Source: Hymenolepis diminuta
Taxonomy: Eukaryota > Platyhelminthes > Cestoda > Cyclophyllidea > Hymenolepididae
DNA: 64,000 bases
Assembly: GCA_900708905.1 (NCBI GenBank)
Contig: CAADRB010000025.1
Location: 317,838-381,837 of the forward strand
Reading direction: 5' to 3'
The position numbers were made by a program, and so were the translations under genes. Below, one piece after another: positions 32,199 through 54,561 of the stretch. How positions within the stretch are numbered: the stretch's first letter is position 1; the number at the start of each line of letters is the position of its first letter. The notes under the pieces were generated by a model. The model was not told the origin of the DNA. It saw only the letters and a program-made list of their open reading frames with translations, and searched no databases.

Positions 32199-32846
32199 CG
32201 ATTTAAGATGTCGGTATTCTGGTAAAAGGTTAGATTTTACCTCCCAGTCACGTGATAATCATACAGTTTGAATGACAATGTGGCTCACCAATGTAATAAT
32301 TTTTTCCAAATGTTTCACTCACATCTTTTTCTTTTGCTGTTGCTCGCTCTTCCTCCTGAATTTCAGTCTGTAGCGTCATTCTTTCAGAGTCTTGACAAAG
32401 CTAGATATTTTTTAGCCGTTTTTTTTCCGGAAAATATTTATTGTGATACTGATACTTTTGTAACTATTTCACTTATGACCAAACCATGTATTTAGATTCC
32501 GAGAGCCACCTTTTATTAAAACGTCAGCGTCGGTCCAGCAAATTTAACTTTGGACTCTCATTTAAATGCTAAGAAAGTTACACTTCTTCCTAGCCTTCTT
32601 AGCAATAGACGTGTGGGTTTACCAAGATAGAGAAGTAAATAAAAGAACATGCTTTGAATACCGATAATTAGCACGTGGATTAAAAGAGAGCACATGAGAG
32701 GTTGGGTCCTGTGAATGAATTAAAGCATAAATGCTCTACTAACTGAAAGTAAGTAGTTGCGGTAATTTAATTTGTGCGTTACTGATGCGTCTTTGACCTT
32801 GAAAGAAGTCAATAACCACGTGTACCTTCATTCGGCTGGAAATATA
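32199..32846. other. Shared upstream region of a divergent gene pair
   Basis: 648 bp between two outward-facing start codons, so it probably carries both promoters. No conserved motif could be named. An ORF at 32268-32495 (plus) is hydrophobic low-complexity sequence and is not called. Confidence 0.4.
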
Positions 32847-33429
32847 ATGTCTTCATGTCGCTGTAAAGCACTCAAAAGTAAAAACAAGAGAAAGGATACA
32901 AAAAAGAGAAAATTTTCGAATAACAGTAGTTCAAAAATACCGCAAAAGTTAACAGAAGTAAAAGCAATTGAAATTTCGGACGAAGTAGAGGGGAGGAAAT
33001 ATCGATTCGAAGATGATAATTTGGAATTAAACCCTCTGAGATTTTGGGAGAAGCGCGATCTAGACATATCCAGGATAGAAAGAAATCTATTTGTGAATAA
33101 ACCAGATGAAGAAATATACATAAACGGAGCAGAAACTGTAGCTATGCTTAGAGATCAATTAGTGGAACTCCACGAACGGTTAGTGAATCAAATTGATGGT
33201 GCAAAATTGTTGGCCGACAATTCAGTTGCTTATATGGAGTCGTTTAGGGATATTTTATTATCGACTTACAAAAGTAGGTTCTGACTAATTTAACAATTAA
33301 TTTGCATTAATCCAAGGCGATTCAAATCCTACGCGACAACAAAAGGCACCACAAAATACAGATGTACTGCAATCAAACACAGGTAACGTATTTGGTTCAA
33401 AGGGAAGAGCACGGAGAAAGAGATATTAA
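32847..33429 (+). CDS. Unknown basic/helical protein, 179 aa (divergent pair, right)
   Basis: Two-exon model: 32847-33273 and 33317-33429, intron 43 nt (GTAGGT..TCCAAG), phase 1, 179 codons plus stop. The open frame extends upstream, but the first ATG is at 32847. Residues 5-35 are Lys/Arg-rich (KSKNKRKDTKKRKFSNN), followed by an acidic stretch. A helical segment near residues 94-140 (AMLRDQLVELHERLVNQI) precedes the intron. The second exon supplies a basic end (GSKGRARRKRY). The family is not recognised. Length, intron phase and position, and the basic-helical-basic order parallel the neighbouring minus-strand gene, but direct residue similarity is too low for me to claim paralogy. Confidence 0.7.
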
Positions 33430-35293: not shown

Positions 35294-35835
35294 ATGACTT
35301 CCGACAAGGAAATTCGGTTTCAAATCATTCCTCGTAAATGCGTAGTCCGTTTGAATAGGATATTTTGAGACTCCATCCGATGGTTTGCATTTCCCAACTG
35401 TGATGCCGGATTGAAGTTATGTCAAATTATTTCTCACTAGAGGGGACTAAATAGACCGCTTAATGTAAGCTCTTTCAAGTATCCATCTACGGTATCCTTT
35501 CTTGCATTTTAGAAATCAGCATCTTAGCCCCAATTACATCGACGAAAACCCCAAAATAGAACTGATCTGCTTAAGTACAACAGAATCTCTTGAAAATATC
35601 TAAAGCGTTTTCCTGGACTGACCGCCATTAAAATTGAATCCAACTAAATCATTGTCATAGTTGCCGCAAAGCTACCTCATTTGGAAGTAGCTAGAATATC
35701 TGCCCTGGTTTCCTTTGTCTGCCGTAGAGATGAGTGTAAGTAATTGGAATTCCAGATTGACTTAACAATTTAGTTTATACGGCTGCGGGTTTAATCGTTC
35801 TTTGCCAATTACACACTTTGTTTAATAAATTGTCG
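35294..35835 (+). pseudogene. La-motif family copy D, degenerate
   Basis: Relic of the family whose intact members lie at 44942 and 50181. Exon-1-like: an ATG at 35294 and EIRFQIIPRKCVVRLNRI, which matches the TIxFExV..IAxxLxLN block, then stops. Exon-2-like: acceptor ATTTTAG at 35512, body 35513-35735 (223 nt against 224 in intact copies), donor GTAAGT. It ends with readable KLPHLEV and FVCRRDE, while the La core before them has stops and a frame shift. A tail-like TACGGC segment and an AATAAA follow near 35800-35828. The preserved splice sites and exon length show an original spliced gene copy. Confidence 0.75.
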
Positions 35836-36249
35836 GATATTTAATCTGATTTCACAAAAAATGCCCATATTAATTAATATAAGTAACCACTAGTATTGCA
35901 TAAGCAAGTATACGGTTTTTCAAACTAGGTTCGATAATTTGAAAGATATGGGACGAAAGTAATGGTTGCGTTGAGCCAATAGGTTGTGGTGGTGATAATG
36001 AAGCAGGGTAAGACTAGACTCATGTACTAATAGCTTCGGGGAGGAAACCAGCTGGACGTTTATGGGTAAACGTAAGGCGATTAGTAACTAGCTAGGGAGG
36101 AGGATCTAAATAAGGGGTTCCGTGAAAATCTTACAGACAAGGCAAGATATAATCGCGGAGCTTAAGAGATTGTATGAAAATAAAGGCTATAAAGGTAAAC
36201 AAAACATAATAGAGCTTATAAGTAAAAGGAAGTTACCATCTTGCCACAA
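35836..36249. other. Spacer, possibly decayed retroelement
   Basis: No ORF. It lies between the La relic and the gypsy fragment and may hold unreadable 3' sequence of that element. Confidence 0.3.
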
Positions 36250-37640
36250 CAACTCCTCCCGTCTAAGCAACGCTTGATTGTGATTGAGCAGAGTCGTGTT
36301 GTCCTAGTGTACGCCCATTTTGTCCTGGTTGTTCTGCGAGCTGGCAAATATTTCCTATCCGCTGGGAAAATTACCAGCTTAACCCACCTCTAATTCCTCA
36401 CCAGCCTTGCCTTGGTGGTATATTGTAGGAACATCAAGAAAGTGTTTAAAAAGGAGCGAAGCAGGGTTAAATTAGTTCACACAGTGAGTGACCCAATTGG
36501 TTTCTATGCTTGGTCCAAATGACATCATTTACCTGGATTTCATAGATGACTTTTCACCGTCGTCTAGGAGTGAGTGATTCGGAAATCACAAGCAAACATG
36601 GGATCATCAGCATTGAACGCACCTATTTTATAACTTTTCTCTGAGTCGTTTGTCCTGTCCATGGGTATTATAGCCTGGTTGATGATTGACACCGTTCGTC
36701 CCATTAGTAGTTCTGTGGGCGATTTATCACCCAATACCGGATGAGGCGCTGTTCTATTGGTCAAAAGGAACTTTGAAACCTCCTCTTTTATTTTCTCCAG
36801 GGTTCTTTTGAATGTACCGACAAACCGCTCTGCCTGTCTGTTTGCTGTGATTAGTAGTATTTTGTCTACATCATTCTTCGAATTGCGACCAAAAGAACTG
36901 TCTTTCAGTGTCCAACAACAGAATTTCCGGGAAACCATGCGGTCAAGGGCACTGATAGTCACTGCACTACTTGATGACGGCATCGAAGTTGCTTCCGACC
37001 ATATGGAGTATGAGTTAACTATTACTAAGAAGACAATGTCATCGATGGGACTGACAAAATCAACGTGCACTTTACTCCGTAGATTCTTCGTTGAACACCA
37101 AAAGCATTGGTAATTCACTTGGAGGCATTTGGCAAGATTTTGACATTTAAGATAGCCTTTGACAAGCAACCCTAAGCCTCCGTCTATTCTCGGCCAATAT
37201 GCGTATTCTCTGACCAAGGTTTTCATTCGATTTATCCGCTTATGAATAGAAAACATTTTTACATTTCAACCAGTGTTATAACATGCTCATGAACATGAAA
37301 CGGGACTCGACAATGGGTAATACCTTACTTCGATGGAATAGATCAAATAGGTCGCCTTTTAAGGATGAAGATGGCCATTTGTTTTCACAAATTTCATGAT
37401 TTTCTGATGATCGAGTCTTTCACTGAAGTGCACTTTATTTCCGCAACCGTGACAGGAGTATTCCGGACAGAGTCGGCCAGAATGCAGCATGCGTTCTTTT
37501 CTGGAGATATTCCGGCGAAGATAATTTCTTCTACAGGTGTTTATTGACTTGCTATTAACCGTGATAATCTGCCAACTCGTCTGAACTCAGTGGTCTTCCC
37601 ATATTTCATTCCGAAATCATGTCCTGTCAAAATTATTGCC
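36250..37640 (-). mobile_element. Ty3/gypsy pol fragment (RNase H end + integrase), decayed
   Basis: On the minus strand, 37640-37260 carries the end of RNase H and the linker (GKTTEFRRVGRLSRLIASQ, then PVTVAEIK) with several stops. An open stretch at 36564-37256 carries integrase: a zinc-finger remnant (MKTLVREYAYWPRI), VHVDF with the first catalytic Asp, and QAERFVGTFKRTL with the catalytic Glu. It ends with the TPHP..GKSP-type segment, here APHPVLGDKSPTELLMGR. The region around the second Asp is missing, and one zinc-finger Cys is lost. Nothing from gag or reverse transcriptase is adjacent, and no LTR borders it. It is a dead fragment, perhaps extending to 36250 as shifted sequence. Confidence 0.85.
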
Positions 37641-37778
37641 CGTTTGCTAACAATACAAAGTTAAATATTAGTTTTCTCCTGATGGGTGACTATAATTTTC
37701 ATCCAATGTTTTAAATTTGGTTAAAATTAGGGCCGCAGTTTTGGCGGTGCCCGCTCGCTGACTGTTCTACCGAAAGCT

Positions 37779-38350
37779 TTAAAATATCATTTGACCCAAC
37801 AATTCATCGGTGGAAGCAACAATGCTGTAAGCAGCAGAAAATTAAACAGATGATACTTTTTATATCAAATGTTTTGAAAATTTATTTAGGCCTACTTCTG
37901 TCCCTTCTAGAAGTAAAAATTCCTGAAGGTCCCTTATCAACAACACTCAAATGAGGCGGCTTTGAATTGACCGCATTCATGATTACGTCACCTTGAGTGT
38001 TGATGGTCGACAAACGAGGAAAACTCATTAGCGCTCCAACAGACATCCCCTTCTGCTGGATCAAAAAAGGCCGCATTTCTTGATCTTTAATGGTGTTGCT
38101 TACGCTAAAGTAATGAATCATAAATGAGATGGAGGGTAGTTAATTTAACCTCTACAATAACTTACAGGCTATATGGACTTCTTTGGCAATGCATATTTTA
38201 TAATAACTTTTATTAAACCTTGCAGCCGCAATGTAGTGATCATCCGGCAAAGATCCACAATGGGGGAGTTAATTGGAAGGTACGTTTAACCCAAGTAGCT
38301 GAGCCACAGTTTCACCTCTCATTGGATAGTATTTGGAACCGTCTCATTTT
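37779..38350 (-). pseudogene. La-motif family copy C, recent pseudogene
   Basis: All three exons can be placed. Exon 1 (38156 to about 38350) reads GETVAQLLGLNVPSN, a stop, then LPHCGSLPDDHYIAAARF. Exon 2 (37896-38119) is exactly 224 nt as in intact copies, fully open, with IHYFSVSNTIKDQEMR, LMSFPRLSTINT and a SRRD end. Exon 3 lies near 37779-37824 (STDELLGQM in a shifted frame). Defects: an in-frame stop and a small deletion in exon 1, and AT instead of AG at the exon 2 acceptor (38120-38121). A one-base frame conflict also occurs at exon 3. The intact exon 2 frame points to a young loss. Confidence 0.85.
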
Positions 38351-39667
38351 GAACCCGTCGTGGTATCTGCGGGTTCCACTTCGAATCGTATATTTATAGA
38401 AAATCCAGTGTCCTGAAAATATTTAACAAACTTAAATTATAGCAATATTTTGTGAAATTGTTTTAAAATTACGCTGTTTTTTACATGACCTCGGAGAACA
38501 CGACTCAAAGTTATTGAGATATTCACTTCACTTTTGTTTAATAACATAACACGATATAATATTTGTGGTTTTTTATTGATAACAGGATTTATTCTACATT
38601 TACACTGCACATACTTTCAACACATCTCGATTGCAAACGCCCTGATGGGAGGCGGAATGTTAAGGCTTCAAACTTTATGGTCAAATCTTATGCTGGAATT
38701 CCGATGAATATATAATATTGTTGTGTAACTTCAATTCACACAGTTTGGTTTAATCAGCTCATTCTAGAACATTATTAATACCTCTCCCAAGCTCTCGCGT
38801 TCCCCCACTTCTGAGTCTTGTATATTTTTGATGTGCACCGAATCGGATCATTACAGATCTGATCAGAGCTAAAAGTTGACCAGTCTAATAGTAAGATTTC
38901 TAAAGGATACTTGCCAATCTCAAAATTAAAGATAAACTTGATGCACTTTGACAAGGACTTGAATCTGCGTTCGTGAAGGAATAGTCTCACCGCAAATATA
39001 GTTGAAACACATCAAGGATTCTTTCGTTATGACGAATTTGAAAAGATTTATGTATAATTAATAACAAGAAGCAGACTTAGTGTGGTATCCCCACAAGAGC
39101 GACAGCCATTTTTCAAAATACGGCAGATGAGAATGGACGATAGCATCTCATTAGAGAGATCTGAGGTGATATTGACACCGCTTGCAATGTAGCAAAGTAT
39201 ACTTCCAGAAGAAGTATCCTAACATTGATGTTCAACATAAATGCGCTTGAAGTATTGTAAAGGCTGACTTGATTGTCCGCATCTTCGGGACCCCTATGGA
39301 ACTGCTTGATAGCCCCCTATGAACTTTCCAGAACGAAGTACAACCGCTGGAAACGTAATTCCTGTATAATGAGGCAAAATCGGCTGAAGCTACATCTCTG
39401 TCACCGTATCAATCATTTTCATTCAAAAAACAAAGTGAAATCTTTTGAGGGGAAAAATTTTTCATTGTCATTTTGAGGTATCATTTCCATATGCAATCTC
39501 TATCTATTAATTTCCACTCAATTAAAGCTTTATTTCATAGAAATGAAATCGAATTTTTATTATAATCTAAAAAGTAGCCACACTTTCACCTTTTTTATTG
39601 AATGACGTAAGATAGCTTAATTGCACAATCATGTAATCGAAAAATCGTCTCCGAACTCGGATTATTC
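38351..39667. other. Gene-free stretch
   Basis: AT-rich. The ORF at 38775-38990 (minus) has no recognisable domain. No transposon ends seen. Confidence 0.4.
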
Positions 39668-39866
39668 TGCCAGGCGAAACGAGACTCGATGAGGTCGTTG
39701 GGAAATGTTGCATGCTTTGTTCATTGATGTGTAGCTGACAGTTGAGGGAGAAGTGGGAATCGGTAAGCGTGCAATACATAGGGTGACGGAGTGTATATGT
39801 ACTACGAATATAATGTGACCTGTCAAAATGGCCCCTTTTCAAATTATCTTCCCTTCGCATATACAT
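39668..39866 (-). repeat. Dispersed repeat family B, copy 1
   Basis: About 199 bp, the reverse complement of 57072-57268 with few differences. It includes GGGCCATTTTGACAGGTCAC and CACCCTATGTATTGCACGC. The frame on the minus strand is open but the plus copy diverges into another frame, so coding is not supported. The high identity suggests recent spread. Confidence 0.85.
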
Positions 39867-40351
39867 TGTTCATGTAAGCTGCACAAAATATCTAATTACC
39901 GTCAAATTAGGTATTTTGAATTGTAGCCGCTAAAGCCTTACTAATATTAATGATACTGCATACACGAATTGATTTATAGTATTAATGTGTGGAAATGGTA
40001 CATAACATGCACTTGGTGTGATTCAGCTTGACAGAGATGTGATAAGATCTGTAATAGATTACTGATTTCACATCATTAAACTTTGATATTTCTAGATGTC
40101 TATGATTATTGCATAGCAATATCACAACAACTTTATGTGAGCTCACTTTGGGTGAAGACAGCTTACGGAGACCTGCCAACTTGCAATTTTGATCTATCTC
40201 AAATTTGATTGGCTAAAGTTTTAAATTGTCGAATATCTTGCAAGATCATTTGCATTCTCGGTTATTGAAAGGGAGAAAATTGCAGTACTAAAACTGACAC
40301 TTTATGATTAAAGTAATACCGATTTTACTGACAAAAGGCTGACATCCCAGT

Positions 40352-40426
40352 TAGGAAGAAGGAAAACACAAATTCTCGTTTGCTAAAGCGAAAATTTATT
40401 ACGGTTAGACTCGAACTATGTACAGC
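40352..40426 (+). repeat. Dispersed repeat family C, copy 1
   Basis: Shares GGAAAACACAAATTCTCGTT and GCGAAAATTTATT with 42414-42488 in the same orientation, with small indels. Short fragment of an unknown element. Confidence 0.65.
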
Positions 40427-40624
40427 ATAAACTAATTTATAAGAGTTCCAATATATAATATAGGGGATGAACATCGTTTTCAATAATAATGTGAAGAAGA
40501 TAGAGAATAAATATTAACTTTGTCAGGGGAAAATATTTCAAAATTATTCATAATTATATTTTCATTCTGACATTTTCTCTTTGTAAGCCATGTATTCCAT
40601 GTAGGACTTCTTCGAGTTTGCTTG

Positions 40625-40950
40625 AAGTTTGTGGCGTTTGCCTGCAGAGGCCTCCTCAGCCAATCAGCAGTCACTATCCCTGCAGCTTAGTATTGCTTGT
40701 ATTTAGGGACCAAGCTTGTGGACAACGACTCATAAGGAGCTCTGTTCGCTTAAAATTCTTTCTATCTCATCGCTTACGGATCAATGAACCCTCTCTACTC
40801 AACACCTTTCTTGTTCTCGCTACTTTTGGAGCGGCCTAGCTAATTTCTGGAGCAAATTTCTAACAGAGGACTCTGCTAGACGCTATCCGGACTGCTTAGG
40901 AGGATTGCGTGGGTATAGCGAAAAGGCTTATTGGTGTAGCATCCGCTACA
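40625..40950 (-). repeat. Dispersed repeat family A, copy 3
   Basis: Reverse-orientation copy ending in the intact near-palindrome (minus strand TGTAGCGGATGCTACACC). It is closest to copy 1 at 24.7 kb: both share GTTGAGTAG.GAGGGTTCATT and the GCGATGAGATAG segment absent from the 48.5 and 53.2 kb copies, so two subfamilies exist. Confidence 0.8.
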
Positions 40951-40966
40951 AGTTCTTCTGTTGGTT

Positions 40967-41239
40967 TCACATTTCTTCATGTCCACTTATTTCTTTTTCA
41001 ACGACGTTATTGGGTAATTGATGCAGCTTCGATCTGCTTCTTCTTCCCATTTGTATTTCCATAGGATATTTTCCAGCAAGCCTCCAATAAGCAGCCGTCC
41101 AGAAGATCTCAAATACAATCTTCAAATTTCTTAGAATGGCTCTCTCTCCTTTTTTGTAGGACCTGTTCTTTACCTTCCTCTTGGTTCGCTTTGAAACAGA
41201 ACACTGCGTTCGTCTTTGTTTTCGGAGAAGGATCTCCAT
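40967..41239 (-). CDS. Unassigned 90-codon basic ORF
   Basis: ATG at 41239, open to a stop at 40967. It is rich in Lys/Arg in its first half (KRTKRKVKNRSYKKGERA) and has an aromatic segment (IFEIFWTAAYWRLA-like, read as IVFEIFWTAAYWRLAGKYP). No domain is recognised. It abuts repeat family A copy 3, so it may be part of a repeat or a chance ORF. Confidence 0.25.
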   Translation of the reverse strand: MEILLRKQRRTQCSVSKRTKRKVKNRSYKKGERAILRNLKIVFEIFWTAAYWRLAGKYPMEIQMGRRSRSKLHQLPNNVVEKEISGHEEM

Positions 41240-42107
41240 GCCTTGTCTTCAGACAATATCCACTTTTGATACTGGTTTCAATTCAATGAATATTGCAGAA
41301 ACATGTTTAAAATGCTGTGTCCTTTTCCCCTTCTTTCAGATCGTTTTTGGAACACGTTTGTGGAGATTATTCTGAGGCCTTTCATTTTGCATTATATCCT
41401 AATTCAAGATGGCTGTCACCTGACTGAACATTTATTTATCTTTCTGGATGACGCTCTCCTTTTTGAGTTCTCCTTTTCTTCAGTACATTGTTTCCTTATG
41501 TCTTTTTTTGCCACACACGTTGTGAATATGAGATATGTAGGGACAAAATCGGATCAAGCGCGAATTATTACAAAAGCCGGTACTCACTTAGAGATTTACG
41601 GAGAGTGAAAACATTCCGGGACTCGTTTGACAAAACTGGACTCATTAGATTTCATGCCACTGTCAAACTTGATATTCATATTTATGTATTCATTAACAAA
41701 AATATTCATTACATGCTTTGAGTATTCGGAGAATTTGACAAAAGACCTCAGTTTGACAAGGCTTTCGAAGACCACTCGGAATTGTAGACATTTTAAATGA
41801 TCCTTCTAATCGCAGAGTTCAAAAACACTGGCAATGCACCTAGAAACAGTCACTCAGTCTCCATCATATTCTTTGGTGAGGGAAAGACAACTACGATACT
41901 TTCAAAATTCAGAAGACCTTCAACAAATAAATCAGGGAAAATCAAGACAGCTTCGCCGAAAGTAAGGTTCGAAGGAAACTTGAGATGCAGGTAACCTTAG
42001 AGCTTTACATTTTCATCCGTTCCCAACCTCCACAACGACAGTTCAACTTTTGAATTGCCTGAAATACCAGTGAGATTGTTTCTTGAAATAACCTCACATA
42101 TTTCAAC
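41240..42107. other. No recognised feature
   Basis: ORFs at 41303-41608 and 41797-41994 (plus) have no domain I know and no clear splice partners. Confidence 0.35.
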
Positions 42108-42329
42108 CTAGTTAGCAAAGGTTCGAACTACTTCTGAGTCATAGTGAGATTCATTAACTTGTAGAACCAGAGAAATCTGTAGATAGTTCGGATAAGGAAA
42201 TGCCCAAATTTCAGTTTTCATGCTTAGAAATTTAGAAAACTTTTCTTGCGATAATTTGTGATGCTCCGGCTGTTTCTTCAGAAAAAGTTCATTGTTCATC
42301 AGGAGAACTCCAAATTCATCAATATTCAA
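42108..42329 (-). CDS. Unassigned possible exon, 74 codons
   Basis: An open stretch without an initial ATG in its first ten codons; Met11 is the first. Composition is protein-like (PEHHKLSQEKFSKFLSMKTE, YLQISLVLQVNESHYDSE). A possible donor (GTAGTTC after HYDSE) and a downstream acceptor (TATTTCAG near 42065) could join a short second exon. Family not recognised, and it may be chance. Confidence 0.22.
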   Translation of the reverse strand: MNIDEFGVLLMNNELFLKKQPEHHKLSQEKFSKFLSMKTEIWAFPYPNYLQISLVLQVNESHYDSEVVRTFAN

Positions 42330-42413
42330 TTAAATTATTGCGAATATTCAAAAGCTGAGTTCTTTTTAGCCTTGTGTTGCCGACTTTTACGACCTACAAG
42401 TCGATATACCGGC

Positions 42414-42488
42414 TAGAGGAAGGAAAAACACAAGTTCTCGTTGTCATTAGCGAAAATTTATTGTAGTTCAGCTCAAACCATGTAGAGT
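42414..42488 (+). repeat. Dispersed repeat family C, copy 2
   Basis: Same orientation as copy 1, about 2 kb downstream, with GCGAAAATTTATTGTAGTTC against GCGAAAATTTATTACGGTTA. The pair may mark the two ends or two insertions of one decayed element. The 2 kb between them contains repeat A copy 3 and unassigned ORFs. Confidence 0.65.
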
Positions 42489-43415
42489 TCGGTGAAATTC
42501 ATATTAATTAACATAAACAATGTTCAGTGATAGATGGAAAGGCGATATCAAATAAAATTTGATTTTGACATGGGAAAATGTTGAATTATTTTTCAAAATT
42601 ATACTTTCACCTTTTCAGCTTCCTTTAGAATAAGGAAAATTGGAAATGCATTCTGAAATAAGAAGTACATGAAGGCAAACCGAGCAGCCATCCTATTTCA
42701 CCCGCTTGACAATAATGCTTACCCTCAACCAGACACTCTCAAGAATGTCAAAGCAGTTTTTACGAATAGAGATTCTAATCATGACCAAAGCCATGCAGAT
42801 CATAACTTTTTGGTAAAATGATCAAGATTTTTTGAGCAATAGGGTGCTAGGGATAAAAAGGAGGAAAAATTAGCTCTTGGTAAATCATTAGGCTCTAGAC
42901 GACATGACATAAGCAATTCAATATTTTCATTCCTGTTTCTAATACCAAAAATCAACCAGTGACTCCAATATGAGCACTAAAATATAAAGCCCTTATCTAC
43001 CAAATTAAGCAAAATGTTCTCCGAAAACAGTGGATTGCTTCTGTAGTTTAGACTGAGTCATTGTTTCCTTGGCAAAGTTTTAAGCGGGGATAGTCGGTGA
43101 CAAATCTACAATTCAGTAAATATGTCTTAATATTTTCCCAATCTGTCTTTGGCATTTCCTATTTCATATTTCGCTGCTCGAACGACGTAGAAATTGGTGA
43201 ATATATTCCAGGTATTCAATTTGTAAGCCGAATGGCTTCATTTCAACATTTGTTAACATTTTTTTAACATTTATCGTCTATAAAAATCGCTGTCGTATTT
43301 TTCGCGTTCAAATATTATGAGTTTGCAGTGCTTTCTGTCGCAATCAAATGTTGAATTACTGTATCTAATAGTTATCTCTGAGGTTATGAGGAAAAAAATC
43401 TTGTCATTATCTGAA
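42489..43415. other. No recognised feature
   Basis: AT-rich sequence with no coding exon, repeat or RNA gene that I can support. Confidence 0.4.
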
Positions 43416-43494
43416 TGTGACAGAAATTCTGTCCATTGTTTTAATTTGAATTAAAGTGAACATTTCGTCAAAAATACATTTATTTAGTGCTCAA

Positions 43495-44713
43495 CACAGT
43501 CACCATTTTCATTAATCACATCTTTCCATCTTGCCACAAGCTTTCTCATTCCTTCGTCATAGAATTTAGCCAGTTTGAAGTGAAGCTAGCTTCTTCATTT
43601 CCACCTCTTCTCGTGAGGTAAGCCTTTGTCCCATTGAATGAATCTGCAAGCTGCTGCAAGCTCCTGTAAGCTCCTGAAAAGATAAAAGTCGGTTGGTGGA
43701 AGAGAAGATGGGGAGAATATGGTGGGAATATGGCGGATGATGCATGACTTGCCAACCAAATTCTTCAACAAGATTTTTGGTTGCTCTTAAACTGTGGAGT
43801 CTGGCATTGTCATGGAGCAGAATCACTCCTTTTCGATTCATCGAAGAAGGCCCTGGCCTTCTTTTTCCTGCCCTTAACTGCCTTTGAACGAGTTAGCTGC
43901 TGACTTCAACAACTTCAGATATTACTATTTCATTATCACCCATTACTTCATAATAAACAATTCCCTTCAATTCCCTTCCCACCATACACACAAAAGAATT
44001 TCTTTCTTTCGAGTGCAGTCCCGAACTGTCTCGGTTGTGGAATTGGCTTTGGACCACTGTCTTGACCTAGCCACCGTGTTTTGCGCTTAACATTGTTGTG
44101 AAGGTTCCACCACTTCACAGTTAGGCTGTCAGTTATGATTCGGTGTAAAAAGGTGCCTCAAATTCGGTTCACGAGAACGCATTGAAACACAACGGGTCAC
44201 ACACACACACACACACACACACCGTTACTTGTTGATTTCTGACAAATCGTGTGGAGGGACGCATTTCCCAGCCTTTGAGACTCTCCCAGCCAAGTCTTTT
44301 CATTTCCCCATATATGGCCATATGGTCATATGGCGGCCTACGTCCAAGATTTTGCTCAGTTCTCTAGTAGTGCAAGTTGCATTTCCATCAATGCCAACTT
44401 GCAACTGCTTAGAATTGAGTTCTTTTGAGCATCCTGCTCTCGGTTCGCCTCTCTCCCGTCTTTCTGAATGAGGTCGTCCTTTTGAAACCACCTGCGGAAA
44501 ACTACCTGTAGAAAATCACCTTCTGTGGGTCTTTTCATTCACAACATCATTTCCATAGGTGTCTTTGAGTGTTTCTACTGCTGCTGATGCTGCTGCTGCT
44601 GCCGCTGAGCATGACGTATTTCCTTCATGAAATTCAAACAGTGAAATATGCCTCCTATGCTCTCTTGTTGGAGTGTTGGAGTATACAACAGGGCTAGAAA
44701 TAATTATCAACAA
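43495..44713 (-). pseudogene. Mariner transposase pseudogene
   Basis: Head and tail lie in different frames with stops between, so no single product is possible. The head carries a run of alanine codons (44579-44608) inside the first helix-turn-helix region, where relatives have only two or three Ala. The catalytic centre is incomplete: the first Asp region (VTCDE in relatives) is not readable, the second is present and the third is replaced by His. Dead element. Confidence 0.85.
44198..44222. repeat. (CA)n microsatellite inside the mariner
   Basis: Twelve uninterrupted CA units. It lies between the transposase head and its catalytic part and disrupts the frame. Confidence 0.95.
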
Positions 44714-44941
44714 CGATAATCATCACACAATCTCAAAAAAGAAGGAATAATATACTATTAAGCGTCATAGATAAGCACACAACATTAACGAGTTTAATTG
44801 AAGTTATCGTGTCCTAAGCACAACTCAAAAGTTGGACAGAACTTCTGTTACAACCTGATATTATAAGGATATTATAATTATAAGGACGCAGTATATATTT
44901 GTATATAATTGAACTAACATGGAAATGAGAGCTGTAAATCA

Positions 44942-45545
44942 ATGGCAGTAGTCCCGAATACTATCCATTTTGAGATTGTGTGTGGTGAAGACATCGCCCG
45001 GAAACTGGGACTGAATCGGTCCGCACGTCAACCTCCGGCTTGTGGATCTTTATCTGATAAGCAGTACTTCGCGACTGCAACATCTAGACGAAGTCAATAT
45101 AGATTATTCCGCACTAAAGTGGAATATATCGCATATTTTTTGTAAGCTATTCAAAGGTTGTCTTAATCTTCCCTATTTTAATTAAGAAATTATTACTTTA
45201 GCATTGACAACACCATCCAAGACCGTAGAATGAGACCCAATTTGCTTAAATACAAGGGGATGCCTGTTAAGGATCTGATGAATTTTTCTCGTTTGGAGGC
45301 TGTTAATACTAGATCGGAGGAAATCATCAATGCGGTCAATTCGAAGCTGCCTCATTTGAATGTAGTTGAGGTAGAATCATTGGGACTTTGTATTTGTCGA
45401 AGAGATGAATGTAAGTTTGGAACAGTTAGCAAATATGATTTCACCTTTGATAGTACAGTTAAAACGCATTTTTTTTCCTGTAGATTACGGCATTAATGCG
45501 ACTTTCAAGGAATTATTGGCTCGAATGGCAAAAAAAAATTTGTAA
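44942..45545 (+). CDS. La-motif protein with unknown N-terminal block, copy A (intact)
   Basis: Three-exon model: 44942-45141, 45187-45410 and 45484-45545, introns 45 and 73 nt, 161 codons plus stop. The acceptor at 45186 was chosen over a later AG because it restores NYYFS, matching copy B. Exon 1: a block of about 65 residues with PNTIHFEIVCGEDIARKLGL, PACGSLSDKQYFATA and SQYRLF, which I cannot assign. Exon 2: a La-type winged-helix motif with YYFS, a D at the N..xxD position, LMNFSRL, then IINAVNSKLPHL and CRRDE. The Gln of classical La motifs is not seen. Exon 3: short tail (GINATFKELLARM). No RRM follows, unlike typical La proteins. RNA binding is an inference from the fold. An AATAAA overlaps the stop region. 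It lies 85 bp from the mariner end. Confidence 0.8.
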
Positions 45546-48524
45546 ATAAATTTTTTTAAACAGGAGTGTTATATTTTGATTCCTTACGCCCAAATCTCTG
45601 TTGACGTCGCTTTTCAATGACAGATTTTATGAATATTTTGAAATTTGAAAGCTACAGAATCAAACGTGGAACATTTTTAATAGTCTTTGAAAATGTGTCT
45701 ACGACTTATATCTTAACTGGAACGTCCACCGCATTAAGTGGTACACAGTGGTACACTAACTCATCATTCACCAAGTGTTACTAAATTTCTAGCCCTAATA
45801 AATGCACAGAGAGAGGGAGGGAGAGTGACGTGAAGGATGTTTAATTTGTACAAATTTTTCGTTCTGGTCGACCTATCTTGACGTGATCTAAACTGAATTA
45901 GGATATAGTTGACAGTAGTCTGGTGGTTGTCAATTGAATTACTTGTCATCAATTTGAATAGTGAATTCAACTACGTTCTCGCATAAACTATCCTACTCTT
46001 CCTACCAGAAGAGTAAATACCTAGAGGCCAAAAAGAGGGCGATAAACTACGTAATATAAGAGTTAACTGGAAGGAAATGACCTTACCGCGAAGTGTTGTT
46101 TCCATGATTCAAACTGTCATCACTGTGGAATTCGAAAAACAGTAAATTATTCTCTTATTGGGGTCTTGAACCATGTGTTTTTGCCATTACACTCTGGTAT
46201 TTGTAAGAACAAGAGGAAGTGAAAGACTTTGTGTAGCAGCCCCAAGGCACGGTCCACTTCGTTGAATCTTGGTCGCAGTATTCCCGAGAGGAATTCATTG
46301 ATCTAGCTCCTCACATGTTATGGCTCTGCGGGAGCTTAATCGTAAGTTCAATTATTTTTGAAATATGAAATATTTGCTATCAAATAGCATTAATATTATA
46401 ATTGAAAGGTCGAAATGGATGAGAGGCTTTGCAAAGATCTAAACTGATAAGTAGGAACATATCTAAAGGCTTGTAGCAAGGGTTGTTGGGGCCAACAAGA
46501 ACCGAGGTCACCAATTTAGGCGTTACCAAATTGTAGGAATCAGATCTTGATTGTAGAAGCAAAGACTATAGCTAACAGCTAACAGCAGCAACAACAGTTT
46601 GAGAGCAGAAAACCAAGAGCTGACTAGGCTAGAAGGTTTTGAATAGATCACGATGAGGATTCAAGCGGGTGGGGGAGAGAGAGAGACGAGGAACAAGGGA
46701 GATGAGAGGGCAGCGTATGAGCCGGTTAGAGAACAAGCGTGCGTACGATTGTGTACCGTATGTATGAGGTGGAAATACAAACACAACTAATGTAGGTCAC
46801 TTAGACAAGTACACGCGTGCTGTGTGAGTCCAGTGTACTTATGGAAGGGGGGAAGGGAAGAGGGCATCGAAAAACACTTTCAGACATGACAGTTAGGGGT
46901 TTTAAGTCATTTGAACATAAAGATATCACTGCTGCATCGTGTATTTTCATAGAAAATGTTAGAAATGCATAAAGAATCATCCTTCAAGCTTATGAGATAG
47001 TGTTTGGTTCAGCCGATGTTTCAAATAAATTTACTAATGACGAATTTAGATTTGGGAAAAGATTTGCATTTTAAATTTTACTATGCCCAATAGGTATCCG
47101 TCCTGTATTTTATCCCTTCCAACAAACATCTACATAGATTCATCGATAACCGTCAGCTTATCACTCCTACCTAGTACCTACATGTGTACATCTAATATTT
47201 ATTTGAGCCGTCATGCAGATATCATCGCTCTGCTAAAATACGTCCAAGGTTTGAAACTCTGCTTATTGTCATATTAATTGCCGGATATTCTTCTATGAAT
47301 GTGAAATATGGGATTCGATTGGACTCTTCAAGATTTGCCGATTACCATAAAATAAAATTTTAATATCAACCGTGCTGCAGACAAGTTTCAACTTGAATGC
47401 TTTGTCGAATGTTCGCTTTTGCAGATATCAATTGAGTTACCCAGCACGAACATCATGTACTGTTCACCTAATACAACCAGGTGATCTATAACGTCCCCAG
47501 ATAATTTTGCATTTTGTTCTGGAAATTTGATTTATTTATTACATAAACCAATCACGTAGAGTCAATATTAAAAGTTGAATATTTGAAGCTGATAGCAAAT
47601 TCTAAACTCAATATTATCGTATTCATAAATCCGGTAATGAAATTCATGAAAGAATACAAGTTAGATGCAATCCGATTAAGGAATATGACCTTTTCGTGGT
47701 GTATATCAGCAACAAGTTCCTAACGAAATAAGATGAGAACCATTTAAGACTGCTCATCAGGTAGTGTTTTGATAAATCCCTAAGACACTTTGAAATTTCT
47801 CCCTGCAATTTGATCCTTAGAGTTCTACCCTTTTCAAGGCGTTCATTAGTACCTCTTCCCGACTTAGAAGTTTGCAAGTGACACTAAAAAACTCGTCTCT
47901 ACTCAGCGCATCTCATTTTAATCCTAAACCTGTTATAAATGTATCCCAGGTAGCTACACTTTATTTCCCTTTTTCATAAAAGAGTTCGAATCGAACCCAT
48001 TTAGTACTTAGAGGCAAGTATTACCCTAACATTATTATAAATGAGCAATATTGCTGAAAAGGTGCAAAATTGGAAGAGAAATAGTTAAAAATTTATGCAA
48101 ATTCTTTTCTTTATAATTTAGCCGGAAAGTTGCTTATATCACTAGCCAATGGCAGAGGTGAAGCCAAAACTTAATCTCCTGGAAGGAATTTCAACCGATG
48201 AACCATTATTTCGCTTTGAACCCCTATTAAAAATACAATTGATCATAATGAGCAACAAAAAACCTTTTAACTTATTAAAAATATTATCACAACGCTGTTT
48301 AACTTAAATATACATTTTTGCCGGTCATTTAGATTGATAAAATTTCAGCAACACGTCTACCATTCGTGACATGGATAACCATAAGCGTTGCCAGTAAGTC
48401 AGAAGACGAAGGCCTGCTGCATTTTCTATCGTGAAATTACCTCTATTTCATCCCTTCTAGGTAAGATTTGCCGGTCCTTTAATTCTATCCATTTATTGCA
48501 TACAAACAACAACAATCGAGTCTA
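45546..48524. other. Gene-free stretch
   Basis: No coding exon recognised. It contains AG-rich simple sequence at about 46668-46700. ORFs at 45764-45970 and 47644-47877 (minus) have no domain. Confidence 0.4.
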
Positions 48525-48875
48525 TGTAGCGGATGCTACACCTAAGTAATCCTCCTAAGCAGTCCGAATAGCCTCTAGCAGAGTCCTCTATTGTCACTTT
48601 ACTCCCAAATTAGCCAGGCTATGCCCAAAGTGGTAAGAACCAGAAAGATGCTGAGTGGACAGGGTTTCACGATCACTTCCTTGTTCACGTGAGTCAAAAG
48701 CTTAGTCATTAAATACGAAATCATGCTAGACTGCAGGGATCTTGATTGCTGATTGGTTGAGGAGGCCTCTGCACTCACGTCCGCGCTTGTTTTCAATGCG
48801 ACCGGTTACATACCACACTTTCCCAGAAAGTTCTAGCGCACGTAGTTCAATCAGTCTTGTTAACATTGTGAACCG
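48525..48875 (+). repeat. Dispersed repeat family A, copy 4
   Basis: Starts TGTAGCGGATGCTACACC and ends near AATCAGTCTTGTTAACATTG. Nearly identical to copy 5 at 53238-53609, but lacking about 22 bp just after the palindrome (copies 1, 3 and 5 repeat a TGCTACACCT-type string there). Confidence 0.85.
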
Positions 48876-50180
48876 CACACCTTTGACACTTGCGCTGACA
48901 GACTTCAAAGGTATATTAGAAGAAAACACTGTAGAACTGTGATAGGTTTGTTCCGGTGTTGTCAATCGTTGAATATAAATGGATTTTGTAATGGAGAGAA
49001 ACAAGTACTGTTATAAGTAAGCAATTGAAAGGAAGTAGGATTTGCTGAAACGATTATAATTGTCCTATTTTGCATCCATCCGAAATTTCTATTAAAATAA
49101 TTGTTACGAGGAAAAGAGCACTTAATATAACGATATCCAGGAAAAATCGTCCAATTTAGGAAGTAATTCATTAATTCGGACCAATGATTTCATGATTAAA
49201 CATTATTCTCAAAATGTCAGGTAAGAAAACATTAAATAATTATTAATTTCGCCAACAAAATATATTTAATAATTTCCATATTCTCTTTTTCTCCTCGACA
49301 ACTTCGAGTAAGATTCGATCTGATTAAACGGCAAACTTCTTGGAAAGGTCCGGTAACATAAATGTTCCCCTAAGACGGAGGAATTTCGGCTTACATTGAG
49401 GATAGAGTACGTCCTAGAACCTTGAATGATTTTCTAGTATCTGCTAAAACTTAGTGAAATTGAGCTTCTACGCGCAAAGTCCTGTCTCGTGCCTTAGTTA
49501 TAGATACGTTTTCAGTTACTCCTAGGTTTCCTGCCTTTGGGATAATTTACTGACCTGGGATGATGGCTTTTTGACATTTCAGGATTTACGGTTAGTTGCT
49601 TACTACTGCGGGCATCCTAGAATCAACAGACGGCTCTACTTATGCCGCTGAAATATGTTGCACTCTTATGTTTCATAAGGTTTATATGGATAGTCTATTG
49701 CGAATTTTATTATCATGAGCCGGATCTTCCCTCTGGAATGGTATAAATGCCTGAATTTGTCCTGTCCGAGCACTCAAATGGATCAGTCGGTCAATACAGA
49801 GAGAATATTGCCGATGTGATCTACATCTTGAACTTTGTGAATGAAACATATTTTATTCCCTAATATGATAACATTAAAGTAAACCTCTTAGGAGATAGTG
49901 ATTAACTCCTGAAGGTCTGATTTAATTACATACGTCAGCACGAACTACCTTCTTGTGATTTATCTCTTGTCGAATATTTTTAAGACGGAAAAAAAGGTCT
50001 TCAGCCATTTCCATGGAAATAGAAATAGATCTGGAGGTTCCACGTTGTTATCCCTCTAACCAGAAGGAATGTTTGGAAATAGAATTGAAAGCAGCTGTAA
50101 ATCTCCTCGATTTGCAGCACAAATCAATGTATTTAGAATGGTCATAATGATAAAAATAAAAAATTATGCTTGATGAAATT
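48876..50180. other. Gene-free stretch
   Basis: No recognisable coding exon. AT-rich. Confidence 0.4.
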
Positions 50181-50795
50181 TTAACAGTTAGGATTCAAAT
50201 ATAGTTTCCGTGCTAAAAAATCCTCGGAAGTGTCACTGTTTCCGTACACTAAAAGAAGTATGAAAAAGTTAAATTTCGTGACTTTCATTAAAGCTAAATC
50301 AGCCAATTTCTAGATACTTACTCTCATCCTCTCGAGCGACAAAGGTCACATTAGATTCGTCTGTAAATATTTTCAAATGGGGTAGCTTTGATTTGACCGC
50401 ATTCTTGATTTCTTCAGGTGTGGGACTGACTTCTGCCAATCGAGGACAACCCTTTAGGTTCTCTATGGGCACTCCCTTAAAATTTTGTAAATGGAGTCTA
50501 ACATAGGGGTCATGACGAATATTATTTTCGCTGAAGTAATGATTCCTAAATGCGTAATTGTCGAAGTCAATTTACAAATAACCTACAATAAGACTGCAAT
50601 ATAATCAATTCGGGAAAGGAAGAGTCTGTATCGACTTTGATCTACCGTTGCTGTCATAAAGTATTGATCATTGGAAAAACGACCGCATTGTGGTAGCTGA
50701 CCGGGAGGAATGTTCAATCTCAGGCATTTCGCAATGTACTCTCCACTGACAGTCTCAAAATTAATAGTCTCCGGAATTATTTCATCAAATATCAT
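50181..50795 (-). CDS. La-motif protein with unknown N-terminal block, copy B (intact)
   Basis: Three-exon model: 50587-50795, 50322-50545 and 50181-50248, introns 41 and 73 nt, 166 codons plus stop. The second exon (224 nt) and second intron (73 nt) have exactly the lengths of copy A. Exon 1: PETINFETVSGEYIAKCLRL, LPQCGRFSNDQYFMTA and SRYRLF. Exon 2: NHYFSENNIRHD, then PIENLKGCPRLAEV (the La-motif Phe is Cys here), IKNAVKSKLPHLKI and VAREDE. Exon 3: MYGNSDTSEDFLARK. All frames are open and every splice site is GT..AG. Divergence from copy A is high at the protein level, while exon borders and key positions are kept, which favours selection. Function unknown; RNA binding is inferred only from the La-like core. 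Confidence 0.8.
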
Positions 50796-52378
50796 AGTGG
50801 ATCCTGGTGATTTATTAATAAGCTGTCAAACCAATTTGTTTATATACTGGAATTTCGATGCTGTGGCATTTCCGGACTTGATATAAAATGAAACATGTCA
50901 TGTACTCGGTACAATTAATAATATAACAGTTAAAATTAAATTTAACACTGCCAAAAATTTACCCCCGTAATGTCACGTTACAAACATAGATACGGCCTAG
51001 ATCATGGTCAGTGAATTAAACAGGTCAACTCATAACTTGATTGAAAGTACATCAGATATACTGGCAGCAAGTTATGAGAGTGATTTTCATACTTTGTATT
51101 GCATATTTCAGGAAGATTTTTCACCAGCCGAATTGATGGTGTTTTCAAGCTAATGTACTGACGAAAAATTGGCATATTCGGGTTATAAATACTTCTAACA
51201 GTTATTCATGACCTGACGAAAATCGGTCATTTTCTGCAAAACTAATGAGTAGGCATATGAATGTGCTTTCAAAAGTCTTAATTTGTTATGATTAACACCT
51301 AATCGTCGCCTGAAGTATAGCTCGAATACGCAATACTTGTGTATTCTGTCTTACAGTTAGAATATTGAGTATTTATTAGGAATTCCCTCTCTTTTCGAGT
51401 TCGTTGAAACCATGCGAAACAGACTCTCTTTTCGTACCTAATTAGATAGACGTATCCGGGCCCTTCCCGGCTTACGGACTTTTGATGAAATGCTCTGACG
51501 GCATGGGATGTTTGGGTTTTAGTAATCTCATGTTTTACGCTTTGCAGATTGAAGATTGACTCTTAATATATTCCAGAATTCTCTGTGACAATCCTTCGGT
51601 TTTTCGTCCCCGAAGCTGTGCTGACGTCTTTTATATCCTTAGGACGCAAAACCCCTATTCCGTAATGTCTAAACGCACCTATATATTCCCCCTCTTGTCA
51701 AAACAACCTAGTTTCCTTTAAAGGAACATCTCCTCTTATGTTTTCGCGCGGCCTTACCCGAGTGACTCTATAAAACTGTCTTTGTTTTTCCACTCATAAC
51801 ATAAAGCACGCGTTTCAGTTACCGAATGCTGCGCCCCTCTCTCATCTCTTTTGTCCCTCAGTCCTTTTCTCTTTCTCTCCCTTACTCGCTTCAGTCCTCA
51901 TTGTAACTTCCTTGAATACATCTTGGTCCAGTCAACTCTTGGTGTTCTGCTCCACAATTATTTTTAGCTAATACTCAAACATCTACGAGTTGGTGACTCG
52001 TTGCTGTTGATAGTTGTCAGCTGCCAACCGTTAGTTCTTAACTCCACCAAGCTAAATACTGGGAGGATCCCATTATATCCGTCTTGACTGACCCAAAATG
52101 TGTATATACTTGCAAATTTTAAAAATTGAGCCTTCTTGTTAAAATTTGCTGTCATTTAGATACCAGCGTATTTATCATATTATTATAAAGTGAAATCTTT
52201 GATCCACTCAAACCCATATTTAAAAGTATCTTGTTATATTGATCAAGTTAGGAAAGAATTCTAAATTATATAGAAAATTGTTGTGAATGTAGCAATGCAG
52301 GTGGTAAAGGGTTATATAACCACATCTATTATGGACGTTGAACACAGAGATAGGGTCGTTAGATATTATAAGACAAGG
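50796..52378. other. Gene-free stretch with a pyrimidine-rich block
   Basis: No coding exon recognised. The block at 51680-51925 is annotated separately. Confidence 0.4.
51680..51925 (+). repeat. Pyrimidine-rich block with TATAAAA, possible LTR relic
   Basis: A CTATAAAACTG string near 51769 is followed by C/T-rich sequence (51835-51900). It resembles the 2755-2915 block in order and in strings such as CTCTCATCTCTTTT. Not proven to be an LTR. Confidence 0.2.
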
Positions 52379-52776
52379 TATAGGGCGCCGCCATTCATGG
52401 CGACGAAACCGAAACTAAAATTTAAACTATCCAATCATTTTTTTCTTTCCTTTGCATACAACCAATCACAAGCCATCCCATGGAGGGGACCAATGAAGGC
52501 CAACTTGGAAGAGTCAACCAGCTGGGCGCCCTCCGGAAAAGAAGAGGAGTAAAGCCTGGATATGAGAACAAGCTAGAATATCACGTTCCGGTGCATAAGC
52601 AAGTGTCCTCTGTCTGTGGCCTCCATCGCTACCCTCCTCTCCGACAACCCTCACTCCTACCTTTCTTCGTCAAACCGAACCTTTCCCAATCAACCCTCAC
52701 TGCATCCTATTCGTTCATAATAAATTCTCATTTTAACTGGCCTTGACTCTCCTATCGAAGTCCGGCTGATCTTACA
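52379..52776 (+). mobile_element. Solo LTR of the gypsy family found at 60.1-63.0 kb
   Basis: 398 bp, nearly identical to the LTR at 62610-63007 and similar to the one at 60107-60485. It starts TATAGGGCGCCGCCATTCAT and ends GGCTGATCTTACA. An AATAAA lies near 52718. GTAT occurs just before AGGGCGCC and directly after the end, a possible 4-bp target duplication if the LTR begins at 52382. No gag or pol flanks it, as expected after LTR-LTR recombination. The high identity implies recent activity. Confidence 0.88.
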
Positions 52777-53237
52777 GTATGATAAGGACATATGATCGAA
52801 ACACATAGACATGGGGAACCAGACGGGAAAATTTTCACAACAGGATATTTCGGCCTGGAGTGTTGGTTCAGAATACGATATAATGGAAAATTTTTCATGA
52901 GGAAGATCTAGTTAACTATAATTGCCGTATACCTATGGAATGCTCCAATTTTCAGAACAGTCTGTTGATGAGAAATACCATGATATTTCAAATGTACAGT
53001 TATACACATGTGCATTTCATTCGTAATTAGCTAACTTCATGCTAAAGCCTGATTGAATACGAATCGCAAACTCTTTCATTTTCTGTTAGCGAAAATAAAG
53101 CATACAATGCTCTCCTGGAATTAACCAATCAAAGTAACATCTTGCTTTTTTTATATAAGATTTGTTTTACGTGATCTTTTCGTTTAATTTTCATCCTTAG
53201 TAAATACTGAACGAGGTGCATTGAAATGACATGGAGG

Positions 53238-53609
53238 TGTAGCGTGTGCTACACCAATATGTCTTCTTGCTACACCTAAGTAATCCTTCTAACCAGTCCG
53301 AATAGCCTCTAGCAGAGTCCTCTATTGTCAGTTTACTCCCGAATTAGCCAGGCTATGCCCAAAATGGTAAGAACCAGAAAGATGCTGAGTGGAGAGGGTC
53401 TCTTGATCACGTCCTTGTTACCGTGAGTCAAAACCTTAGCTATTAAATACAAAACCATGCTAGACTGCAAGGATCTTGATTGCTGATTGGTTGAGGAGGC
53501 CTCTGCACCCACGTCCGCGCTTGTTCTCAACGCGACCGGTTACATGCCACATTTCCCCAGAAAGTTCTAGCGCACGTAGTTCAATCAGTCTTGTTAGCGT
53601 TGTGAACCC
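53238..53609 (+). repeat. Dispersed repeat family A, copy 5
   Basis: Starts TGTAGCGTGTGCTACACC, then carries a second GCTACACC about 22 bp on. Body and 3' end closely match copy 4 (GTTCTAGCGCACGTAGTTCA). Confidence 0.85.
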
Positions 53610-53872
53610 CGCCAAGGTTCTTGATCCTTATATGCTAACGTTCATTTAATCACTTGTTTTATTTGAAAATTTTCACTTTCTCTTAGATCATGAAATTGCA
53701 AATTGTCATTGAGGCGGACATGTTTCAAGCTAATTACATTTTCTAGAGCAGAATATGTGCTCTTTAGGGACGTGTGGGCTAAATTTACTAATATAGGCGA
53801 TAATGAACGAAAAATTTTCAATTCCTCATCTACCGGAAAAATGCCATTCATTAAAGTATCGGATAGCAACTT

Positions 53873-54301
53873 TTGCTAACTCGTCTAATTAAAGTAAATG
53901 GAAGAATTCTCATATTTGGTTTCCGAAGTAGAAATTTGGGTCATCTGGATCTTTACCCTCTAATCATTACTTCACATTCGCATCAACAGGTCAAGATCAA
54001 TAAAGGGAGTTCTCTCCCAGAGAGGGTTACACTGCATACTTACAGTAAGTCATTCAAGATTTCTCTCAATCAAATTTCATCCTATTTGATAATTGCTCAT
54101 TTTATGCTTTTTAATTTTCTATTGCCTTTAGTTAGGTCCTACAATTTATCCGAGATCGGACAAAGAACCCACTTCAATGAACTACATTCGTGGTCATTTA
54201 TTGATGACGAAATTGACGATCCCACCAAATTTAGGGTTTATTACTGCGTAATGAGAATGATTCATTATAACTTCAATGGAAATCTTACTGAACGGGAATA
54301 G
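53873..54301 (+). CDS. Unassigned gene fragment, up to 142 codons
   Basis: An open frame without an ATG near its start. A consensus donor (GTAAGT at 54045) and an acceptor (TTGCCTTTAG ending at 54131) allow an 87-nt intron to be removed in frame. This joins VTLHTY to RSYNLSEIGQRTHFNE. The end part (WSFIDDEIDDPTKFRVYYC, NFNGNLTERE) looks protein-like. I do not recognise the family. An upstream exon supplying the start codon was not found. It could be a real gene's 3' part or an open pseudo-exon. Confidence 0.35.
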   Translation: MLTRLIKVNGRILIFGFRSRNLGHLDLYPLIITSHSHQQVKINKGSSLPERVTLHTYSKSFKISLNQISSYLIIAHFMLFNFLLPLVRSYNLSEIGQRTHFNELHSWSFIDDEIDDPTKFRVYYCVMRMIHYNFNGNLTERE

Positions 54302-54399
54302 ATGCTGTTGCATCGTTTAATGCGGATGACGATAAATTAATGGTATCTAAAGGAAACAAAAGTTATTCTCAGATGCATCGCAAAATCTTGCCTTAGTAT

Positions 54400-54561
54400 G
54401 CAATATAGTCCTCCTTTCGTAGAGAATAGTCTCTACTGACAGTTGATTTGCTTTTGCCGTTGTGAAGTACTGATCATCGGGCAGGGATCAGTGAGGTAAA
54501 AGTTGAATTTTTGTGAAAAGCCCCCATGTTTAATGGTTTCAGTGATTGATCTTGGAACCAT
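54400..54561 (-). pseudogene. La-motif family copy E, exon 1 relic
   Basis: On the minus strand an ATG at 54561 is followed by VPRSITETIKHGG. After a frame shift it reads DDQYFTTAKANQ, which matches SNDQYFMTATVDQ of copy B. No exon 2 La motif was found downstream, so only a decayed first exon remains. Confidence 0.65.

Follow-up and report, generated by a model that had tools for sequence, protein, structure and literature searches.

The window analysed here, a stretch of 64,000 nucleotides of Hymenolepis diminuta DNA, holds five copies of a gene related to the La motif (LaM), the winged-helix RNA-binding fold of the RNA-binding protein La. Two of the copies are intact genes of three exons. 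Copy A (44942..45545, plus strand; exons 44942-45141, 45187-45410 and 45484-45545; introns of 45 and 73 nt) is predicted to encode a protein of 161 aa with a pI of 9.5, and copy B (50181..50795, minus strand; exons 50795-50587, 50545-50322 and 50248-50181; introns of 41 and 73 nt) one of 166 aa with a pI of 5.6. All introns of both genes are GT-AG, and the predicted spliced frames are open. The first-pass annotation had proposed that the copies share an exon plan, with a second intron of 73 nt in A and B. Splice reconstruction confirms this intron length, and the common plan consists of a phase-2 intron ahead of the YYFS core, followed by an exon 2 of 224 nt in both A and B; the homologous stretch measures 224 nt in copy C and 223 nt in copy D. 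Copy B matches the annotated H. diminuta protein P0001 (named partial), and its exon 1-2 junction is the same in the database proteins P0001, P0003 and P0004. In P0002, from H. weldensis, an in-frame acceptor 15 nt downstream leads to the loss of five residues, including the YFS core.

The remaining three copies have decayed, so that the initial count of two intact and three decayed genes holds. Copy C (37779..38350, minus strand) is a pseudogene whose exon-2 stretch (37896-38119, 224 nt) is open across the 73 codons compared and scores 65 bits in a protein-profile search; its exon 1 is interrupted by a stop in the homologous frame and falls seven bases short at the 3' end, and there is no AG at the aligned acceptor positions of exon 2 or exon 3. 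Copy D (35294..35835, plus strand) is an older pseudogene, with an exon-2 stretch (35513-35735, 223 nt) that is one base short and has two stops within its matched part, and an exon 1 that is hardly recognisable. Copy E (54400..54561, minus strand) is a frame-shifted relic of exon 1 only. Its protein-profile score of 4.9 bits is at chance level (three DNA shuffles, top score 6.1), and thus its membership rests on DNA-level similarity to A and B (Smith-Waterman scores of 58 and 52, with null maxima of 36 and 35). When the Smith-Waterman scores of the ten copy pairs were compared with 200 dinucleotide shuffles, nine exceeded every shuffle (z 5.0 to 56.8), C-E barely so (43, shuffle maximum 42), and the D-E pair did not score above the shuffles (z -0.5). 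An Rfam search of the whole window gave no match.

That these genes carry a La motif, as first proposed, is upheld by profile and fold searches. A and B match PF05383 (La) significantly, at 21.7 and 24.4 bits against a curated cut-off of 37.1 bits; among P0002, P0003 and P0008-P0013, only P0008 (38.0) and P0009 (37.7) lie above the cut-off, as do three of the six family loci among the matches listed in a genome search. By fold search, the AlphaFold model of B (P0001) has a LaM fold; the remaining four AF2 models of P0001 have mean pLDDT values of 72-74. Pfam profile, PDB sequence matches and fold search together rule out an absence of La similarity. Pfam detected an RRM in none of the proteins scanned (A, B, P0002, P0003 and P0008-P0013) at E <= 1, a threshold that a diverged RRM could escape. 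The DM15 domain of LARP1 (PF21071) has no match on the window's contig (C84) or on C56, a contig with further related loci, and matches only on C87, C110 and C5.

Ahead of the LaM lies an extra N-terminal module, and the phase-2 intron falls within the first LaM helix. Against Pfam, the module gave no credible match (one family, E 0.2, in one of 11 members), and against PDB sequences it gave seven at E <= 1, the best of which (0.015) is an unrelated designed repeat. The idea that it is an internal duplicate of the LaM found no support: hhalign aligned only the six overlapping residues, or 15 columns (E 0.042, probability 1.3%). With their last 14 residues cut, the modules of C84 and C56 show no significant sequence likeness to each other (hhalign E 0.04). 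Both AF2 models were built from the same 13 sequences, and that of P0008 is poor overall (pLDDT 46.6), with values of 46-85 per ten-residue block in the module. LaM matches fill the fold lists of both models and none covers the module well; the lists establish for its fold neither novelty nor identity with a known one.

The first-pass annotation described a local family of five genes, of which the homology stands and the limit to five does not. Four more loci with both exons lie on C84, at 392, 404, 438 and 447 kb, and the exon plan, with its phase-2 intron before the YYFS core and its 224-nt exon 2, recurs at all four; five related loci lie on C56. The copy at 447 kb matches the annotated P0011, a protein of 690 aa with a low-complexity tail, and at locus 392 the second donor departs from the usual GTAAG/GTGAG kind. 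In five family-query searches, every match at E <= 1e-3 falls on C84 or C56. A sub-threshold match (E 0.014) was seen at C8:1025557-1025679. Two stretches of C84 (309960-310112 and 453068-453127) with weak exon-2 scores of 9.6 and 9.4 bits (top of three shuffles, 4.4) were rejected as unconvincing by eye in the three frames of the matching strand.

Beyond H. diminuta, copy B has relatives in three other hymenolepidids: one in H. weldensis (86%), one in H. microstoma (63%), where it is named 'expressed protein', and one in R. nana (60%). A search of the database proteins of searchable length with a profile that included A did not turn up A's own product; it is not exhaustive, since it also missed the known relative P0004. 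Between A and B, dN/dS is 0.19-0.25, a rough value because dS is near saturation (1.7-2.2) and one that, being pairwise, cannot separate A's constraint from B's; it is accompanied by a third-position excess. The comparison of A with B shows constraint, most evident for B, which has relatives in other species; on these grounds, the view that all copies are dead was rejected. The apparent restriction of the family to hymenolepidids could reflect the word-based search method. Among the literature matches listed, none describes a La-motif family in tapeworms.

To place the family, a LaM tree was built from 11 family rows and 11 references, including La, LARP1, LARP6 and LARP7 (82 columns of a short domain, unrooted). 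The family rows form one group (support 99/96) apart from the La, LARP1, LARP6 and LARP7 rows, and within it A and B join 392 and 404, not 447, with moderate support (83/84). These fast-evolving genes apparently make up a separate, undescribed branch of La-related proteins. Conservation of the LaM pocket residues is reported for all LARPs except LARP4 and some plant LARP6 (PMC7928032). In the family, the pocket glutamine Q20 is lost from all 11 rows while kept in 11/11 references, and the other pocket residues are lost variably: position Y23 is Y or F in 6/11 family rows versus 11/11 references, Y24 is kept in 9/11 versus 10/11, D33 is kept in 10/11 family rows, position F35 is aromatic in 5/11 versus 11/11, and position F55 is F in 6/11 versus 10/11. 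To judge from these residues, canonical 3'-end binding is probably weakened, and some RNA binding by the family LaMs is plausible, given the retention of D33 and Y24. The same retention would suit ordinary, fast-evolving LARP1-type paralogues that tolerate the residue changes and whose LaM has kept its hold on poly(A) 3' ends. So would the failure to detect an RRM next to the LaM in the proteins scanned, which agrees with LARP1, and the presence of the LARP1 LaM among the better profile and fold matches. Yet we consider this unlikely: Q20, Y23 and F35, whose losses are given above, are reported as the positions most critical in LARP1, DM15 matches are absent from C84 and C56, and the tree sets the family outside the LARP1 rows.

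Alternatively, every short copy, even A and B, might lack a function of its own and be no more than a decaying offshoot of the long 447-type gene, a reading consistent with three dead copies out of five in the window and with the failure to find A's product in the non-exhaustive database search. We give it little credence, since B is intact and has relatives in three other species, A and B bear the marks of constraint given above, and both group away from 447. The first-pass annotation had spoken of gene birth and death in a transposon-rich locus; the former is supported by intact, half-decayed and fossil copies side by side, and the latter is weakly supported by dispersed repeats near several copies. 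One repeat pair (48534-48874 and 53268-53608, 92%) lies 3' of B (~1.3 kb) and of E (~0.8 kb). However, this repeat also occurs at sites with no La gene within 2 kb, such as 30914-31227, and in one blastn the other flank matches do not correspond in position and no terminal repeats were seen around the copies. Five ORFs scanned, of six in the 130-aa ORF listing, contain no Pfam family above cut-off. Because they keep introns, the copies are not retrocopies. That the copies are cargo of transposable elements rather than local duplicates would explain the repeats close by, and is scarcely credible in view of these flanks, the retained introns and the confinement of family matches to C84 and C56.

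The reading that we favour, with a probability of roughly 60%, is that A-E are the window's share of a divergent, so far hymenolepidid-only La-related family with an altered pocket, which is duplicating and decaying locally. One ancestral LARP-like gene would have given rise to the whole family, and local duplication would have spread it into the two clusters on C84 and C56, leaving compact copies (A and B, ~160 aa) beside the long P0011 on C84. Decay stages may stand side by side because redundant local copies are easily lost. Most likely, the proteins would serve as intracellular nucleic-acid or RNP adaptors on a LaM scaffold, with a changed pocket that would have cost them the canonical grip on 3'-UUU-OH or poly(A) 3' ends; other contacts could come from the N-terminal module, joined in long members by the low-complexity tail. 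More tentatively, and at somewhat less than even odds, the family may be a separate hymenolepidid LARP subfamily in whose common ancestor the LaM lost its 3'-end pocket and gained a new N-terminal module and a new RNA- or protein-binding role, and which is now radiating in two clusters, with proteins of ~160 residues that consist of little but this double module. With Q20 lost from all 11 rows compared and at least one member conserved across species, the family offers a natural test of the roles open to a LaM that lacks canonical 3'-end binding. Because rodent tapeworms serve as laboratory models, expression and function are testable, and the locus is a clean local example of birth and death within 20 kb.

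Among known systems, the LARP1 LaM (e.g. PDB 7soo) shares with the family the LaM fold, the DYI...YYFS register of the first helix and the lack of a detected RRM adjoining the LaM. Unlike LARP1, the family has no DM15 match on its contigs, has lost the Q333 equivalent in 11/11 rows, has an aromatic F348 equivalent in only 5/11, and possesses both the extra N-terminal module and an intron that interrupts the first LaM helix. The family departs from genuine La (PDB 1yty, 2voo) in its altered pocket and in having no detected RRM. LARP4 and LARP4B carry an RRM. The family profile matches LARP4 (PDB 6i9b) and PDB 2cqk, which we take to be LARP4B, more weakly (E 7.8e-4 and 2.8e-4), and neither is in the tree; LARP4, like the family, is reported to deviate from the usual set of pocket residues (PMC7928032). 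Of the PDB sequences, the family profile matches S. pombe Slr1 (C1527.03, PDB 9cb2) best (3.9e-10), but this protein retains all six pocket residues. Two H. microstoma proteins are relatives of individual family loci: P0009, 'RNA binding protein Lupus La' (603 aa), is 75% identical to C56_1128, and P0012, 'expressed conserved protein' (685 aa), is 87% identical to C84_447. Both are long proteins, whereas A and B are compact.

The La-motif genes of the window are local members of a larger, divergent LARP branch in which the pocket is altered and a further module accompanies the La motif. The first-pass annotation had described a local family of five copies (within 35294-54561), and both the gene family and its La name proved correct; what did not stand was its local extent. 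In the rat tapeworm genome searched (170.6 Mb, 203 contigs; window, G000:C84:317838-381837), four further loci with both exons and the same plan lie on the same contig at about 392, 404, 438, and 447 kb, and five lie on a second contig, C56, at 920, 941, 953, 1128, and 1135 kb. These locus counts are lower bounds, because the best candidates alone were scored.

The two intact copies, A (44942-45545, plus) and B (50181-50795, minus), have GT-AG introns and encode spliced products of 161 aa and 166 aa, respectively. Exon 1 is 200 nt in A and 209 nt in B, and intron 1 is 45 nt and 41 nt. As had been claimed, A and B each have a 224-nt exon 2 and a 73-nt intron 2, and the stretch matching exon 2 spans 224 nt in decayed copy C and 223 nt in D. 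The same exon 2 length of 224 nt was measured at 6/6 C84 loci (A, B, 392, 404, 438, and 447), and intron 2 lengths, measured at five loci, are 73, 73, 73, 74, and 63 nt, with junctions placed by eye; the second donor of locus 392 is unusual. A and B each offer a pair of in-frame acceptors spaced by 15 nt (45187-45202 in A, 50545-50530 in B). Use of the downstream acceptor in A or B would delete the YFS core from the La motif (LaM), and the annotation of P0002, a Hymenolepis weldensis relative of B, uses it. The C56 loci keep the first intron directly ahead of the YFS core, after which the exon continues longer. Two of them, at 941 and 953 kb (L041 and L042), are near-identical in opposite orientation (differences in 1/73 exon-2 codons and 0/69 exon-1 codons), with reading frames that diverge downstream of the La motif; the pair reflects either recent duplication with inversion or an assembly issue.

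We placed 11 family members in an unrooted LaM tree of 22 rows and 82 columns, together with seven PDB sequences and four canonical H. diminuta loci, leaving out C, D, E, the duplicate 953, and any LARP4. All 11 family rows fell on one side of a single branch (support 99/96), which, with the grouping of 447 and 438 (99/92), alone reached the mark for strong support. At lower support, the C56 rows grouped together (92/92), as did A, B, H. microstoma P0003, 392, and 404 (83/84). B joins P0003 before A (85/87, below the strong mark), in which case the A/B split would predate that of H. diminuta and H. microstoma.

Ahead of the LaM, the predicted structures of P0001 (the database match to B) and P0008 (another family member) have one strand, at least one helix, and three further strands. 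Confidence over this N-terminal module is high for P0001 (block means 84-92) and uneven for P0008 (46-85), whose model is poor overall (46.6); the two models are not independent because the same 13 sequences lie behind both. By topology, the modeled module may be half a winged helix; a test for internal duplication as its origin gave no support. C84 and C56 modules show a weak sequence likeness (hhalign E 0.0017, 27 columns at the module end), which is not significant without the last 14 residues (E 0.04). The exon-1 profile scored at most 6.5 bits in four canonical La loci, and the module had no credible match in Pfam or PDB.

Pairwise dN/dS between A and B is 0.19 for exon 1 and 0.25 for exon 2, figures that are rough because dS is 1.7-2.2 and that do not show constraint on A alone. 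Exon 2 differs at 23, 24, and 41 sites in codon positions 1, 2, and 3 between A and B, and at 23, 20, and 26 between A and C (dN/dS 0.40). B matches the database protein P0001 ('unnamed protein product, partial [Hymenolepis diminuta]'), and has relatives in H. weldensis (86%), H. microstoma (63%, 'expressed protein'), and R. nana (60%). The product of A had no match among database proteins of searchable length, even with A in the profile, in a search that also missed the known relative P0004. Three word-limited database searches gave no named match outside Hymenolepis and Rodentolepis (matches P0005-P0007 are nameless).

Pairwise DNA alignment placed 9/10 pairs of copies A-E above all 200 dinucleotide shuffles, C-E narrowly (43 vs 42); D-E was not above them (z -0.5). 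In a six-frame scan, A and B, themselves profile members, scored 89 bits each for exon 1 and 99 and 106 bits for exon 2. Outside the profiles, C scored 32 bits (exon 1) and 65 bits (exon 2), and D 26.5 bits (exon 2). E is supported by DNA similarity alone, since its top score of 4.9 bits is no better than that of shuffled DNA (6.1, three shuffles). In C, the homologous frame of exon 1 is interrupted by a stop, the exon ends seven bases short, and AG is absent from the aligned acceptor positions of exons 2 and 3, yet exon 2 retains 73 open codons. D has two stops within a matched exon-2 stretch one base short, and E is exon 1 only, with a frame shift.

Dispersed repeats occur close to the copies. 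Repeats noted in the window are 52375-52778, 60103-60485, and 62606-63009; 48534-48874 and 53268-53608; and 44275-44859 and 63423-64000, the first of this last set ending 83 bases upstream of the A start codon. Pairs are 87-99% identical across the sets, so some are recent. When 3-kb flanks were compared with the window in a single blastn, matches beyond the genes were repeats also present elsewhere, one of them located 3' of B and also of E at differing distances, and short pairs whose positions do not correspond (48107-48258 with 34128-34284, 70%; 42416-42487 with 40355-40425, 76%); no duplicated unit exceeding gene size and common to the copies was therefore seen. Of the six listed ORFs of at least 130 aa, five were scanned with Pfam, and none had a family scoring above cut-off. 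ORF 60521-61513 (+, 330 aa) adjoins recent repeats, is gag-like by eye, and matches DUF5726 below threshold (E 0.0018, 19.1 bits vs 25). ORF 36564-37256 (-, 230 aa), adjoining C, is integrase-like by eye, and its sole Pfam match, PSI_integrin, is below threshold. The adjacent ORFs 31743-32198 (-, 151 aa) and 32772-33284 (+, 170 aa) are small, charged, and lysine-rich, vaguely alike by eye, and have no Pfam match at E <= 0.01.

The family is not LARP1 proper: matches to the LARP1 region DM15 (PF21071) are confined to contigs C87, C5, and C110, outside C84 and C56. They mark three separate LARP1 DM15 loci in H. diminuta; two of these share contig and strand with a canonical LaM, about 10 kb (C87) and about 2 kb (C5) away, and there is none for C110 among the matches listed. 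No RRM was found in the family members scanned. The pocket itself differs from that of the reference rows. Q20 is kept in 0/11 family rows vs 11/11 reference rows, Y23 as Y or F in 6/11 vs 11/11, an aromatic at F35 in 5/11 vs 11/11, and F55 as F in 6/11 vs 10/11; Y24 is kept in 9/11 vs 10/11 and D33 in 10/11 vs 11/11. The family's biochemical role is one that we infer. PMC7928032 names these six pocket residues essential, and in LARP1, according to PMC9458460, Q333, Y336, and F348 are the most critical, with loss of Q333 causing a 20-fold loss.
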